Positions 55,138 through 61,653 of a stretch of DNA of 64,000 bases are shown piece after piece. The DNA comes from Bryobacterales bacterium. Its GTDB lineage: Bacteria; Acidobacteriota; Terriglobia; Bryobacterales; Bryobacteraceae. Position numbers and translations under genes: made by a program. The notes under the pieces were generated by a model. That model saw nothing but the letters and a program-made list of their open reading frames with translations. It was not told the origin of the DNA and did no database searches. Position 1 is the first letter of the stretch; the number at the start of each line of letters is the position of its first letter. Location: the NCBI GenBank assembly GCA_003135055.1, contig PLDF01000349.1:1-64000 (forward strand), given 5' to 3'.

Positions 55138-55610
55138 GTTACAAGGTTTTTGGGCCGTCGAGAAAACCGCCAATTGGCACAATCGGCAAAACCATCCGCA
55201 GAAGGGCGCCCACACGTTTTCGGGAAGCCCCGTTTAAACTACTGCTCTGACGGTCGCGGTTCTGAGACTATCTGCAAACACGCGCAGTCGAAACCGAGAC
55301 GCGACTGCAACGGAACTGGGATTCTCGCGGCCGATCGAGGATTGGGCTAGCTGCTAGCCTGTCGTCCTCCATGTCGTCTCCCCCTGTCGTTTCCCCCTGT
55401 CGTCTCCTCCTGTCGTCCCGGCCTGGCCTCACACAAATTGTGGGGCAGCCCCCAGTCCGCCATAGCCGCTAAATTAAGGCCCATTTCACGCACCGAAGCG
55501 CAGCCCCCTGACAGCGCGGAGCACGCGCGCCGACTGACATCGTCGTTCATAGAGCGGGGAACCTGGGCGCCTCATTTAAAGCGAGAATCTGCCATTCGGC
55601 GACCTCGGCT
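55138..55610. other. Gap with short tandem repeats, no gene
   Basis: It holds the TGTCGTCTCC tandem units at 55360-55421 and a GTGGGGCAG fragment at 55440. Short frames on both strands have no family support. Confidence 0.55.
55360..55421. repeat. Short tandem repeat, about 13 bp, five units
   Basis: Successive units start TGTCGT and end in TCCCCC-like runs (TGTCGTCTCCCCC, TGTCGTTTCCCCC, TGTCGTCTCCTCC and variants). It is pyrimidine-rich on the plus strand. Confidence 0.8.
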
Positions 55611-55868
55611 TCATGACGCCTTGCGCAATTCTTCGCGGATCACTCGCCGCACGATCTCTTCGATCTGGGGCGCAGCCTTTTTGCCCTCCAGGTATTCGCG
55701 CAGTACGGCGTTAATTGCGGTCTGGTAGTTACCGCCGCCGGCGCGGTCGACTGCCTCGCGAAAGTAGTCCAGTATATCGGCGTCTAGCCGGATGGTGATG
55801 CGTTCCTTGCCGGGCGTGGGCAGCACCGCGCCACGTTTGCCTTTACTGAAGTCGTAATGATCTTTCAT
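55611..55868 (-). CDS. brnA: BrnA-family antitoxin
   Basis: An 85-residue protein. It opens MKDHYDFSKGKRGAVLPTPG, the typical BrnA lead, followed by the ribbon-helix-helix motif RITIRLDADILDYFREAVDR and a C-terminal helix. BrnA binds BrnT and represses the operon. The frame is fully open. Its ATG overlaps the stop of the brnT relic (ATGA), as in standard brnTA operons. Confidence 0.9.
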   Translation of the reverse strand: MKDHYDFSKGKRGAVLPTPGKERITIRLDADILDYFREAVDRAGGGNYQTAINAVLREYLEGKKAAPQIEEIVRRVIREELRKAS

Positions 55869-56133
55869 TGGTTTTCGTACTCCTGCCGTTCATGCGGGTT
55901 TGCGAGGCGCGCTGAAATCAACCGGATATCGCTGCCGCTCCATGCGTATACCACTACCAGGACTCGCGCCAGGGCATCCAATCCCAACGTTACGAAGCGC
56001 TCCTCGGCACTGGATGCGTAATCGTCGATGGTGACTGCGCGGGGATCTTCCAGCACCGGGACCGCGTCGCGGAAACGCACCCCGTGTTTTTCCACGTTGG
56101 CTTCGGCTTCTCCGGGTCCCAGACAATCGCCAC
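55865..56133 (-). pseudogene. brnT: BrnT toxin with one-base deletion near the N-terminus
   Basis: GTG at 56133 starts MAIVWDPEK, the normal BrnT N-terminus. After the ninth codon the frame must shift to continue as EANVEKHGVRFRDAVPVLED, ERFVTLGLDALARVLVVVYA, and RLISARLANPHERQEYENQ to the stop at 55865. One G missing in GAGAAGCC explains it. The RNase toxin is therefore inactive unless frameshifting occurs, while its antitoxin gene downstream is intact. Confidence 0.85.
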
Positions 56134-56367
56134 GCTTCAGTGTACATCGATATGCACAGCGCGAGCTGTGGTTCCACCCTCCGGCGGCGGGATGGAAAGG
56201 CACTGTGTAGGGTGCTGCCCGCCACGCGCCGAATGCAGCCTGGTACATCTCATTCGGGACAGCTTGGCGGCGGATTGGCCGATATAAAAGGACTTCAGGG
56301 GAAATTGGCCCGGCCTTCCGTCGACCCATCGGCTCGACGGCTATACTGAAGGAGGTGAAACGTCCGG

Positions 56368-56638
56368 GTGCGCTTCGACTTGGAATGCTCGCAAGGCTGC
56401 CTCGAACCTCCGGAAACATGGTGTCTCATTCGATGAAGCTGCGGGCGTGTTCCTTGATTCGCTTTCGGGAACGGCGACGATCCCGATCATTCCTCGATGA
56501 AAGGTGCTTCGTGACCTTTGGTATCTCATCTTCGGGGCGCCTGCTCGTGGTCGCACACATCCAAGATGACGAGTTATTCGGATCGTCACCGCTCGTCTCG
56601 CGACGCGAGCGGAAAGGAAGCTCTATGAGGAAGGCTAA
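56368..56638 (+). pseudogene. Second BrnT-type toxin, multiply frameshifted
   Basis: VRFDLE is followed in shifted frames by ARKAASNLRKHGVSFDEAAG, then VFLDSLSGTATI, then DERCFVTFGISSSGRLLVVA, HIQDDELF, and finally RIVTARLATRAERKLYEEG. This is the whole BrnT fold with at least three indels. GGAGGTGAA precedes the GTG start. The antitoxin frame begins at 56625 inside the last codons of the relic. Confidence 0.85.
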
Positions 56639-57090: not shown

Positions 57091-59223
57091 ATGGCAGAAC
57101 AAAGGTGGACCAAGAAGCAGTTGCAAGGCTTCCATGCGGCTGCCCAATCGCTCAAGCTTTACCGACGCGCAGAGCTTGAGCACGAAGGGACCAAGAAATC
57201 GCTAATCTCATCCTTGTACGTCGATCCGTTACCCAGCGACCATGTACTCGAGGTCGTTCTGAAGCCAAACACTACTTTTCTAATTGGCCGAAAGGGAACC
57301 GGGAAGTCCACAATATTTCAGCGCGCTCAGCACGAACTTCTGGGGCAAGATAGTTATGCCGCCGCGTACGTCGACATCAAGACCGTGTACGAATCCTCAG
57401 CGACCGACCCCGAACTACTTCAGAAATTCGGAGGCGGCCCGACAGCGCTGCCGCCTCAAATGCTTGAGCGTCTTCTCTTATATCGCGCGTTCCTTCGCGC
57501 CGTGATCACTGCCATAAAAGAGGATTTGAAAGCTAGACTCAAAGAATCGTTTTGGATCAGAATTAAGAATAAGTTTTCGGGAACCGTCGACGAGCTCTTC
57601 GAGTCTCTGGACTCGCTGTTGGAAGACGCCGCCTCCGACGAGTTTGTGAGCGTCGTTGGCGTAAAACAGACCAATTCCAAGTCTACAGGCGAACATCTGG
57701 CCACCGAAGAGGCTAAAGGCTCTGCCTCACTTCACCTGAACGCGAAACCGGCGCTGGAACTCGGCGGATCTCTGGGCTCCTCCACAACAACTAAGGCCAC
57801 TGAGGAGACGTCTTATGGCGACATCTTGATGCGCGTCTTCAATATTAAGGAAATGATCGCGCGGTTGAAGGGGGTCTTGGACACGGCTGGCGTCAGGCGC
57901 CTCTATATATTCGTTGATGATTTTTCTGAACTGCCTGAAGAAGCGATGAGAGTCGTGGTTGACAGCCTGCTAGCCCCGCTTAACAACTGGTCGGACGAGC
58001 TCATAAAATTTAAGGTGGCGGCGTACCCAGGGCGCATCTATTATGGCCAGATCGATAAGACGAAGATCGATGAAATCGCTTTGGACCTATTCAGCCTGTA
58101 CGGAACGACAGATGTATCTGATATGGAGGAGAAAGGGATCGATTTTACTCGAAGGCTAATCGAGCGTCGGCTCGAAGAGTACTGCGGGTCGAGCGCCAAA
58201 GCTTTCTTAGAGTCGGAAGATGCCAGCATCTGGCGGCAATTATTCTATGCTACTCTTTCGAACCCGCGAACTGTCGGTTATATACTGTTCTACCTGTATG
58301 AGTCCCACTTAATTTATCAGAAGCGAATTGGAAGTAAGGCAATTCGCGATGCCGCGCAGCGCTATTACGACGAGAAGATTCTTCCGTATTTCTCGATGAA
58401 CCACTTTCTCCACGAGACATTCGATGAGAAGGCATCTGTTCTTAGCTTGAGGGAATTACTGGAAACTATGATAAGAAAGCAACGAGATCTAAAGAAACAC
58501 CGTGAGTCAGCTGTCATGCGGGATATTTCGGGCACTCCGCCTACCAGCCATTTCCACATTGCTGTTCAATTTGAGTCCCTCCTCTCAACACTTGAGTTAA
58601 ATTTCTTTGTTACGAAATATTACGAGATGAGTGATCGCGACAGCCGTAAGGTGGCCGTCTACGCGCTCAACTACGGGCTGTGCCAGAAGTACGCCATCGA
58701 GTTTGGAAGGCCAGTGGACAAGCGAGAACAGCGGCTGTACTTCGTGGAGAGAATCTTTGATGCGACCTCGATTCTAAAGCATTTCATTCAGACAAATCAG
58801 GAGATCAGATGTGACCACTGCGGAGAAACGATCGAGCTAGAAAAGCTGGAGATGTTGAAACATTACGATATGCAGTGCTTTAAGTGTAAAACAGGGCGCT
58901 GTGCCGTAGTGAATCTTTCCAAGAAATTCGAACAAGTCATAGCTGGAGCGAAAAGTGAACTCCTCCTGCCTGTGGCCGAGCTTGGGATTCTACAGACGCT
59001 TGAGTCTGAGAAACGTCCCATGTTCGCGGCAGAAATAGCGGCAGAGCTGGATAGATCCTACCAACTTATTGGAAAGCGAGGGAAGACCCTCGCAGAGAGG
59101 GGGTTGGTGCTCCGGAAGGAATCCGAAAACCGACGGATCTTCGAGATTACGGAATTGGCTGAAAAAACCTACTTCGTTGGCAACCCTGGGGATGGGCTGA
59201 ATATTGACGAAGAAGCTCGCTAA
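57091..59223 (+). CDS. P-loop ATPase with zinc ribbon and winged helix; candidate undescribed system
   Basis: A 710-residue cytoplasmic protein, unlike its neighbours in base use (for example, 58261-58320 has 25 G/C of 60). The N-terminus is helical. Walker A is FLIGRKGTGKSTIF (G at residue 66) and Walker B is YIFVDDFSEL (DD at 276-277). Residues 130-250 are helical or coiled, with a low-complexity KSTGEHLATEEAKGSASLHL section. A RIYYGQIDKTKIDEIALDLF segment follows the core, with an arginine-rich helix after it. CDHCGE (574-577) and CFKCKTGRC (596-604) make a zinc ribbon, and residues 630-700 form a winged helix (ILQTLESEKRPMFAAEIAAE). STAND- or KAP-like defence ATPases are the nearest idea; no name can be given. 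Confidence 0.75.
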   Translation: MAEQRWTKKQLQGFHAAAQSLKLYRRAELEHEGTKKSLISSLYVDPLPSDHVLEVVLKPNTTFLIGRKGTGKSTIFQRAQHELLGQDSYAAAYVDIKTVYESSATDPELLQKFGGGPTALPPQMLERLLLYRAFLRAVITAIKEDLKARLKESFWIRIKNKFSGTVDELFESLDSLLEDAASDEFVSVVGVKQTNSKSTGEHLATEEAKGSASLHLNAKPALELGGSLGSSTTTKATEETSYGDILMRVFNIKEMIARLKGVLDTAGVRRLYIFVDDFSELPEEAMRVVVDSLLAPLNNWSDELIKFKVAAYPGRIYYGQIDKTKIDEIALDLFSLYGTTDVSDMEEKGIDFTRRLIERRLEEYCGSSAKAFLESEDASIWRQLFYATLSNPRTVGYILFYLYESHLIYQKRIGSKAIRDAAQRYYDEKILPYFSMNHFLHETFDEKASVLSLRELLETMIRKQRDLKKHRESAVMRDISGTPPTSHFHIAVQFESLLSTLELNFFVTKYYEMSDRDSRKVAVYALNYGLCQKYAIEFGRPVDKREQRLYFVERIFDATSILKHFIQTNQEIRCDHCGETIELEKLEMLKHYDMQCFKCKTGRCAVVNLSKKFEQVIAGAKSELLLPVAELGILQTLESEKRPMFAAEIAAELDRSYQLIGKRGKTLAERGLVLRKESENRRIFEITELAEKTYFVGNPGDGLNIDEEAR

Positions 59224-59356
59224 TTTTCTTGTTCGCAAACTGGTCCGGCCATAGCTTCAAGACGAATCGAAGGCCAGCCGGCGTTGCATCTCCGATTCCC
59301 GACCGGTCAAGATCCAGAAACGGCGGCTCCGGGAATTGTCTGACTCCGCGCGGGAG

Positions 59357-59582
59357 CTATTCGATTCGCACTCCAAACGGCGTCATGCCGCCGGTCAAAA
59401 CCGTTTTCGTAACCTCGCCGGAGCCGCAAATCATAAATGAGCCAAAGTCCTGTACCAATCGCCAACGGGCCAGTATTCACCTAATCCCGCAAACGCTGAA
59501 GATCTTGCAGAGAAATCCGACGCTCCTCGACGCGCGTGAGAATGTGTTCCCAGATAAGCCGCGGAAGACTAGATAATCGAAT
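59357..59582 (-). pseudogene. Second gene of the RHH module, copy 1, broken
   Basis: From a TTG around 59582: PKIRLSSLPRLIWEHILTRV, then EERRISLQDLQRLRD and a TAG where copy 2 has Trp. The rest is frameshifted (DFGSFMICGSGEVTKTVLTG is visible). It overlaps the end of the ribbon-helix-helix gene at 59569. The family of about 80 residues is not known to me. Confidence 0.65.
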
Positions 59583-59967
59583 CTTCGGCAATACCATCCT
59601 TCCCGAAGATTGCCCTGATCAGATCCTTACCCGCTTCGCCTTTGCGTTCGGCATCGGCCTCAGCCATGAACCGGCGATAAGTCGCTTTGAGATTATCGCG
59701 TGTGGCAGCCTCAGCCTCCACGCCCTGCTGCGCCGGCGCAACCAGCGCCCGGCTCATCGTGAGATGCATTTTCCTGGCGACGCGCTCGACCTCAATTGCC
59801 AGTTGCGCGGGAATAGTAACGCTTTGCCGCACGGACGGCGCCGTCCGCGCACGAGTCTTTGACGCCCTTTTCACAACCTGATCCTCTCAGACGCACCAGC
59901 CCGGTTGCACCAGCCTGTGCAGTTGGCTGTTTGGATTGCGCCCAAATCGGCTTCGTGCGAAAACTGG
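59360..59967. repeat. Segmental duplication, copy 1
   Basis: About 600 bases matching 60945-61533, beginning ACTCCAAACGGCG and ending GGCTTCGTGCGAAAACTG. It contains the RHH gene and its broken partner. Confidence 0.85.
59569..59874 (-). CDS. Ribbon-helix-helix-type antitoxin-like protein, copy 1
   Basis: A 101-residue protein. The basic N-terminus and SVRQSVTIPAQLAIEVERVA, RKMHLTMSRALVAPAQQG, suggest a ribbon-helix-helix DNA-binding domain; ATYRRFMAEADAERKGEAGK forms a C-terminal helix. It is the intact copy; the paralogue at 61162 is frameshifted. In a two-gene module with the small downstream gene it would be the antitoxin. Confidence 0.75.
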   Translation of the reverse strand: MKRASKTRARTAPSVRQSVTIPAQLAIEVERVARKMHLTMSRALVAPAQQGVEAEAATRDNLKATYRRFMAEADAERKGEAGKDLIRAIFGKDGIAEDSII

Positions 59968-60773: not shown

Positions 60774-60948
60774 CCCTTGATCTTAACCAGTCCGAAATCA
60801 AGATCGGCAGTAATTCGGGCTCTCGCTGAGATCATTTGGCTCGGCATGCCGGATAACTGCGGCACACACCCCAGGAAAGCCCTTCTGAAAATCCTCTGGC
60901 CCCGCACGGGAGAATCGCAGCCTGCTCTTCCATGACCGCTATTCCGTT

Positions 60949-61158
60949 CGTATTCCAAACGGCGCCATGCCGCCGGTCAAAACCGTCTTCGGAACCTCGC
61001 CGGAACCGCAAATCACAAATGAGCCAAAGTCCTTGTACCAATCACCCGCGGGCGCCCGCAGGCCAGTATTCACCCAATCCCGCCAACGTTGAAGATCTTG
61101 CAGAGAAATCCGACGCTCCTCGACGCGCGTAAGAATGTGTTCCCAGACAGGCCGTGGA
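60949..61158 (-). pseudogene. Second gene of the RHH module, copy 2, without a start
   Basis: WEHILTRVEERRISLQDLQR, then WRDWVNTGLRAPAGDWYKDF, GSFVICGSGEVPKTVLTGGM, ending APFGIRTE. This is the clean version of the family, but a TGA lies just upstream and no ATG, GTG or TTG is in frame before the conserved part. It is complementary in its damage to copy 1. Confidence 0.65.
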
Positions 61159-61161
61159 AGA

Positions 61162-61469
61162 CTAGAGAATCAAATCCTCGGCATCCTCGGCAATACCATC
61201 CTTCCCGAAGATTGCCCTGAGCAGATCCTTACCCGCTTCGCCTTTGCGTTCGGCATCGGCCTCAGCCATGAACCGGCGATAAGTCGCTTTGAGATTATCG
61301 CGTGCGGCAGCCTCAGCCTCCACGTCCCGCTGCGCCACCGCAACCAACTCATCGTGAGATGCTTTTTCCTGGCGGCGCGCTCGACCTCAATTGCCAGTTG
61401 CGCGGGAATAGTAACGCTTTGCCGCACGGACGGCGCCGTCCGCGCACGAGTCTTTGACGCCCTTTTCAC
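61162..61469 (-). pseudogene. Ribbon-helix-helix-type protein, copy 2, frameshifted
   Basis: It starts like copy 1 (MKRASKTRARTAPSVRQSVT) but leaves the frame after HLTMS; the second half (RDVEAEAAARDNLKATYRRF to KDGIAEDAEDLIL) is in another frame. A short deletion relative to copy 1 explains it. Confidence 0.85.
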
Positions 61470-61653
61470 AACCTTACCTTATGCTATCAGACGGCTGTTT
61501 GGGTCGCGCCCGAACCGGCTTCGTGCGAAAACTGCCCCCAAAGGACTTCCTGGGAGTTTGGGCGCTCACTTCAGTGGAATGGGTCTTTCGTCAAACTGGC
61601 GCTTCGGCTCTATGCCTTTGACGACATAATGCCTTTTATGACATAATGAGGCC

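Follow-up and report, generated by a model that had tools for sequence, protein, structure and literature searches.

A solitary ORC/Cdc6-STAND-like AAA+ ATPase with a zinc ribbon, a MarR-like winged helix and a hypervariable insert: a horizontally mobile family with a probable role in anti-phage defence

The protein that we call P0001, the 710-residue product of positions 57091-59223 (+ strand) of the window (the whole 64,000-nucleotide stretch of Bryobacterales DNA that was analysed), belongs to a family of which about 50 further members were found. They share a single full-length architecture and come from more than 10 phyla, one mobilizable plasmid and phages. Comparison of predicted structures supports placing its core in the ORC/Cdc6-STAND class of AAA+ ATPases. 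Judging from the sequences of its members and the hosts that carry them, the family is horizontally mobile across phyla as a single gene, and we consider it probable that it acts as a stand-alone, mobile anti-phage (anti-invader) ATPase. The open reading frame listing of the window gives the gene as intact, with 710 codons, and it is the sole copy in its own 10.7 Mb genome. Its parts are as follows.

57091..59223 (+): whole gene, a solitary ORC/Cdc6-STAND-like AAA+ ATPase with zinc ribbon and winged helix (from the ORF, relatives and GC content).
57091..57258 (+): N-terminal helix and conserved SLKLYRRAE and YVDPL motifs, residues 1-56 (invariant R26, A27, Y43 and D45; helix 8-22 in the model).
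57259..57402 (+): predicted AAA+ core strand 1, Walker A GRKGTGKST (66-74) and strand 2, residues 57-104 (60% mean pairwise identity; model).
57403..57639 (+): predicted helical part of the insert after strand 2, residues 105-183 (helices 107-181 in the model; 27% pairwise identity).
57640..57837 (+): hypervariable, Gly/Ser/Thr/Ala-rich insert tip, possibly an amphipathic beta hairpin, residues 184-249 (19% pairwise identity; beta alternation).
57838..58110 (+): Walker B DDFSE (276-280), sensor strand and invariant AAYPxR..G..D..K, residues 250-340 (58% pairwise identity; alignment).
58111..58380 (+): helical lid with invariant P392-R393 as candidate sensor 2, residues 341-430 (alignment, model and structure comparison).
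58381..58725 (+): winged-helix-like middle domain, residues 431-545 (strands 507-514/520-526 in the model; span covered by the 2qen, 2fna and RdrA matches).
58804..58914 (+): zinc ribbon C574/C577/C596/C599, residues 572-608 (alignment of relatives).
58930..59184 (+): C-terminal MarR-like winged helix, residues 614-698 (3e6m, Z 13.3; MarR_2 in relatives).

The first-pass annotation of this DNA had described a Walker A/B NTPase core, a four-cysteine ribbon at residues 574-604 and a C-terminal winged helix in one 710-residue protein, and all three are borne out by the relatives. Among 34 full-length relatives, Walker A and Walker B (…FVDDFSE, ending at residue 280) hardly vary, if at all. The ribbon consists of C574-x2-C577 and C596-x2-C599; C574, C596 and C599 are invariant in the 34 members, and C577 is more than 90% conserved. 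The C-terminal domain is MarR-like over residues 622-697 or so, as judged by Pfam matches in relatives and by structure. The alignment of these 34 members further brings out the AAYPxR motif, H487-F488 and D654 of the winged helix, all invariant or nearly so, and three invariant arginines (R315, R360 and R393) as candidates for an arginine finger. A putative recognition helix around the motif DxSxQLIGxR is conserved among copies whose GC content ranges from 26 to 59%; this suggests that its target is nucleic acid in general and not an operator peculiar to one host. The earlier reading of the protein as a nucleotide switch joined to a nucleic-acid-binding end is supported accordingly as a reading, and the remark that the family had no known name agrees with our searches, in which P0001 reached the cut-off of no named family. 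No nuclease, NADase or protease domain was recognised in the chain.

The family alignment, with the row from the plasmid collection left out, was modelled with AlphaFold2 (pLDDT 78, pTM 0.77). In the model, strand 2 occupies residues 89-95 and is followed by helices and an extension up to residue 265; the Walker B strand lies at 270-276. Compared with the PDB, the model aligns with Cdc6 (1fnn, Z 13.3 over 254 residues at 4.0 A), 2qby (Z 13.2), RdrA (8hr8, Z 12.9 over 288 residues), TnsC (7plh, Z 12.1), MalT (8bob, Z 12.0), an archaeal STAND-type ATPase (2qen, Z 11.9, 312 residues over 16-535) and BrxC (9zdx, Z 11.7); these values are so close together that they support a class rather than one nearest family. 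Residues 622-697 by themselves match the MarR regulator 3e6m at 1.9 A over 74 residues. P0001 shows three features of the class: intact Walker A and B motifs and, in the predicted structure, a core with a helical lid and a following winged helix as well as a helical insert after strand 2. Sequence searches of the PDB with the ATPase part of P0001 as query returned no relatives, and with the family profile they returned only winged-helix regulators and weak, short matches to Walker A.

The most variable part of the protein lies inside its motor. Between strand 2 and Walker B, P0001 carries an insert of about 150 residues, and its tip (184-249) has a mean pairwise identity of 19%, versus 58-60% in the motor; even among relatives that are 73-81% identical overall, identity in the tip is 31-62%. 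The length of the tip, on the other hand, is held to 64-79 residues. Gly, Ser, Thr and Ala abound in it, Leu, Phe and Tyr are scarce, and Cys is absent. No other 40-residue block shows so strong an alternation of hydrophobic and polar residues (mean z 1.8 versus shuffles of the same residues); the value is above zero in 33 of the 34 sequences, although these, being related, are not independent. The tip has a pLDDT below 50, and strands are drawn in the first model only; in a second model, of a member from Bacteroidota, the insert is disordered (pLDDT about 30), and the case for a hairpin therefore consists of the sequence pattern. A relative from the family PF24389 (L062) has an insert rich in Ser, Gly and Lys at the equivalent place. 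In DnaA and ORC, the extra motif after strand 2 contacts DNA. Such an extra motif is a hallmark of the ORC/Cdc6 ATPases (PMC12839542). As far as the sequences can tell, a constrained length combined with sequence turnover fits a recognition tip that evolves in an arms race, or else an amphipathic hairpin acting as effector. A bolder proposal, that the insert is an amphipathic beta hairpin at the position of the initiator motif and that, in rings driven by invader DNA, these hairpins, one from each subunit, would form a beta barrel or fence as the effector (e.g. a membrane pore or a DNA clamp), we regard as a long shot. Were it true, P0001 would be an immune ATPase of the AAA+ type that carries its effector as an insert in the motor domain itself.

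The family is thinly but widely spread. A pattern scan of one genome per species yielded 45 loci, most of them full length and 34-63% identical. The plasmid member, found by tblastn, is 32% identical over 96% of P0001. Its carrier is a mobilizable Enterobacter hormaechei plasmid of 6 kb, on which the family gene and the 3' end of rep overlap; in the plasmid collection the family is present on one of 72,556 plasmids, and E. coli genomes searched with the plasmid homologue gave no match. Within the phylum Acidobacteriota, a protein query found one positive genome in 297, and a profile search at the level of the order found three in 250: the genome of the window itself, G515, and G378, in which the gene is split over contig ends. 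Each of the 33 host genomes that were checked has exactly one member, in two pieces in two of them. Two archaeal contigs from metagenome-assembled genomes also carry a member; these are short, and misbinning is possible. A tree of 47 members groups the hosts only in part. The window copy falls with other copies from Acidobacteriota (99%), while a starred branch unites isolates of Psychrobacter and Sulfurospirillum with Bacteroidota, and a starred clade of seven rows places a Pedobacter isolate among Pseudomonadota, Nitrospirota, Planctomycetota and Methylomirabilota.

Phages carry the gene too. Five contigs in IMG/VR have full-length family genes. On one of them (L068), the gene lies about 40 bp from a P2-type portal gene, in convergent orientation, and the terminase gene follows (PHROG E-values 1e-167 and 1e-173). 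In P2-like phages, the locus from gpA to gpQ (the portal), next to cos, is a hotspot for anti-phage cargo, and houses old and tin in P2 itself (PMC9122126). The copy in question sits on the hotspot side of the portal gene; this is a single locus, and since the contig starts 221 bp before the gene, only the portal side of the hotspot is visible. We regard this location as the strongest functional clue. The other contigs have genes for tape measure and terminase (L050), for terminase, a DnaB-like helicase and a RecT-like protein (L069), and for neck or tail completion (L070); the part of L049 that was read held no phage gene. Among curated phages, the family occurs in one only, as a fragment: the filamentous Vibrio phage KSF1 (L003/L071:6520-6873) has the first 114 or so codons, 72% identical to the P2-like copy. 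This identity indicates that the gene has passed between unrelated types of phage. Truncated in this way, the KSF1 gene keeps Walker A and lacks Walker B, and is possibly a decayed copy or a dominant-negative fragment. P0001 matched no family in PHROGs, and a search of BFVD gave nothing at E 0.001 or better.

In the window, the gene has a GC content of 50.2% (GC3 59%) between local flanks of 60.7%, and the neighbouring genes have a GC3 of 61-79%. The first-pass annotation had noticed this base use, unlike that of the neighbours, and the gene is indeed some 10 GC points below its surroundings, a trait common to the family. When each of the 51 family loci is compared with the DNA on either side of it, 50 prove AT-richer (mean -10.7 points, Wilcoxon p 7e-10). 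Because of this, the low GC of the window copy is not proof of recent import. The idea of such an import is weakened by the family-wide AT-richness and by the nearest relatives, all of which come from Acidobacteriota. The toxin-antitoxin setting described earlier is borne out in part: upstream lie BrnA/BrnT (PF14384 and PF04365), and downstream a gene with a PIN domain (PF01850) and an HTH gene that resembles HigA. The 101-residue ORF at 59569-59874 matched no family. That ORF lies in a duplication of about 530 bp (59356-59879 and 60938-61474, 90-98% identical); in the second copy it appears frame-shifted, and the PIN-domain gene lies between the copies. Directly downstream of the BrnA gene, at 55369-55420, are four tandem copies of a 13-bp unit (CCCTGTCGTCTCC-like). 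The BrnT ORF (55865-56419) has 184 codons, about 100 of which precede the toxin domain, and the true BrnT start is probably internal.

Around the family as a whole, no gene recurs. Clustering of 612 ORFs from about 48-49 loci revealed nothing beyond chance pairs, which suggests that P0001 and its relatives probably work alone; the single-gene unit that had been proposed from the sequence thus gains support. Individual loci do have defence genes next to them: a TIR-like protein (L006), AbiGi (L032), a methyltransferase/helicase pair (L049), a type I restriction-modification system (L030) and a D12 methylase (L060), those at L030 and L049 being called from PADLOC tallies, an HsdM search and the ORF sequences. 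Chromosomal copies are mostly found among ordinary genes, however, and enrichment in defence neighbourhoods does not show in the counts: HsdM occurs within 10 kb of the gene at one of 33 loci, where about 0.29 would be expected from the 66 occurrences of the type I methylase family in the 150.5 Mb of the 33 host genomes, and integrases account for at least three matches at two or more loci among the matches listed, against about 1.2 expected. The case for defence, then, draws on carriage by phages and a plasmid, the site beside the P2-like portal gene, transfer between phyla and kinship with RdrA, BrxC and STAND proteins, and not on enrichment near defence genes; the solitary habit, the defence genes beside some copies and the AT-richness of nearly all of them also speak for it. 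Against it weigh the mostly ordinary surroundings of chromosomal copies, the lack of a recognised effector domain, the weak similarity of P0001 to DS41_1 and the rarity of the family among curated phages and plasmids. If the role is indeed defence, a solitary habit outside defence islands would explain why screens based on guilt by association missed the family.

How might such a protein work? The ribbon and the winged helix could dock on nucleic acid that is made or exposed in infection. This docking, or a phage product, would trigger assembly of an ATP-dependent ring or filament, as in RdrA, TnsC or ORC, and the assembly might stop the invader or the cell directly, a step proposed because the chain is devoid of recognised nuclease, NADase and protease domains. 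The hypervariable insert, at the site of the extra motif of initiator ATPases, would serve as the tip that recognizes the trigger or acts as effector. If this is true, a single-gene defence family is added to the ORC/Cdc6-STAND ATPases, one whose members occur in bacteria, in phages, on a plasmid and on two archaeal contigs. The family would offer a compact system in which to ask how ATPases of the initiator type, elsewhere loaders of helicases and transposases, come to serve as immune switches, and how phage might be arrested by an ATPase in which no effector domain is recognisable.

Three other roles deserve to be weighed against defence. P0001 might help mobile elements to replicate or to be maintained, as an ORC/Cdc6-like accessory factor that loads on element DNA and later became stranded in chromosomes. 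Here the resemblance of the core to archaeal Cdc6/Orc1, its closest fold, the overlap with rep on the Enterobacter plasmid and the presence of the family in phages all speak in its favour, and the first-pass annotation had itself named an ORC/Cdc6-like match as a finding that would tell against defence. The core does have that fold, but a replication role is unlikely, because carriers have replication genes of their own (the plasmid and one phage encode Rep or DnaB-type proteins) and because the gene is solitary and sporadic: no rep, par or origin partner recurs in 48 loci, each of 33 host genomes has just one copy, standing alone, and KSF1 retains a mere fragment.

That P0001 is instead a transcriptional regulator of the STAND type, switched by ATP to activate or repress genes and binding DNA through its MarR-like end, is distinctly unlikely. 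Such a protein would account for MalT among the structural matches and for the type of the C-terminal domain, but it should have a target gene conserved nearby, and there is none; its putative recognition helix would not be expected to stay the same over hosts of differing phylum and GC content, as a reader of host-specific operators would vary; and phages and the plasmid offer no obvious regulon. Quite improbable, finally, is a cargo gene for counter-defence or superinfection exclusion from which the mobile element, and not its host, would profit. In its favour is the occurrence of the family on at least four phage contigs, on one plasmid and in the filamentous phage fragment; most members, though, are chromosomal, without integrases or phage genes nearby, and superinfection exclusion would still be anti-phage in effect, so that this alternative differs mainly in who benefits. 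A single-gene anti-phage ATPase that would sense nucleic acid of the invader and oligomerise remains the reading that we prefer.

By profile, the nearest named families are ATPase_Sll1717 (NF047389) and the ORC-CDC6-like family PF24389, followed by DS41_1 (NF053860). NF047389 matches 34 of 35 members (best 1.6e-15), and P0001 over residues 30-429 or so at 48.1 bits, under the curated cut-off of 75; the papers searched make no mention of Sll1717. The genome of the window also has a wider Sll1717-family member with in-frame stops (G000:C139:14628-15992; L057, L058). PF24389 matches 16 of 35 members (E up to 0.01, best 4.1e-9), and P0001 at 26.4 bits, 0.6 short of the gathering cut-off of 27. Its Acidobacteriota protein L062 aligns over 366 columns (E 1e-20), but lacks the zinc ribbon and C-terminal winged helix present in P0001. 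Four further ATPase relatives from Acidobacteriota (L051:1483-3912, L052:475-2919, L053:571-3000 and L063:520-2934) have a long N-terminal domain starting with FVAYPS or LLYPSD. One of these domains has a weak match to nucleoside deoxyribosyltransferases (PF05014), and is possibly a TIR-like effector. MADS gene 8 was considered as an identity for P0001 and rejected, its 20 bits being judged a generic ATPase match.

That ORC/Cdc6-STAND AAA+ ATPases take part in immunity is already known from RdrA, BrxC and DS-41. In E. coli, DS-41 has been validated as an anti-phage system (DefensePredictor, PMC13092281). DS41_1 matches 20 of 35 members (best 8.3e-13), and P0001 at 24.7 bits, below the curated cut-off of 370. 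Its protein L065 ends in a CxxC...CxxC pair like the ribbon of P0001, and unlike P0001 has no winged helix after it. An hhalign comparison with a single DS41_1 protein gave 25 columns and no full-length match; without an end-to-end alignment, common descent of the ribbon is a lead rather than a result. RdrA of RADAR (8hr8, 8fnt) is likewise an AAA+ defence ATPase, about 12% identical in sequence, and its ring suggests a model for the assembly of P0001; it is paired, however, with the deaminase RdrB, absent here, and the C-terminal domains differ. BrxC of BREX and other defence ATPases of the ORC/Cdc6 clade (PMC12839542) have, like P0001, an ORC/Cdc6-type AAA+ domain and then a winged helix, but BrxC has 1200-1300 residues and belongs to a multi-gene complex, whereas P0001 is solitary, with a zinc ribbon and a MarR-type end. 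Archaeal and eukaryotic Orc1-Cdc6 and TnsC share the core fold and the position of the insert after strand 2; P0001 differs in being mobile, solitary and not linked to origins or transposition genes, and in its additional zinc ribbon and second winged helix. KAP NTPases have transmembrane helices between Walker A and B, the place of the insert in P0001. The ribbon and MarR-type end, the stand-alone use and the hypervariable insert together define an unnamed subfamily.
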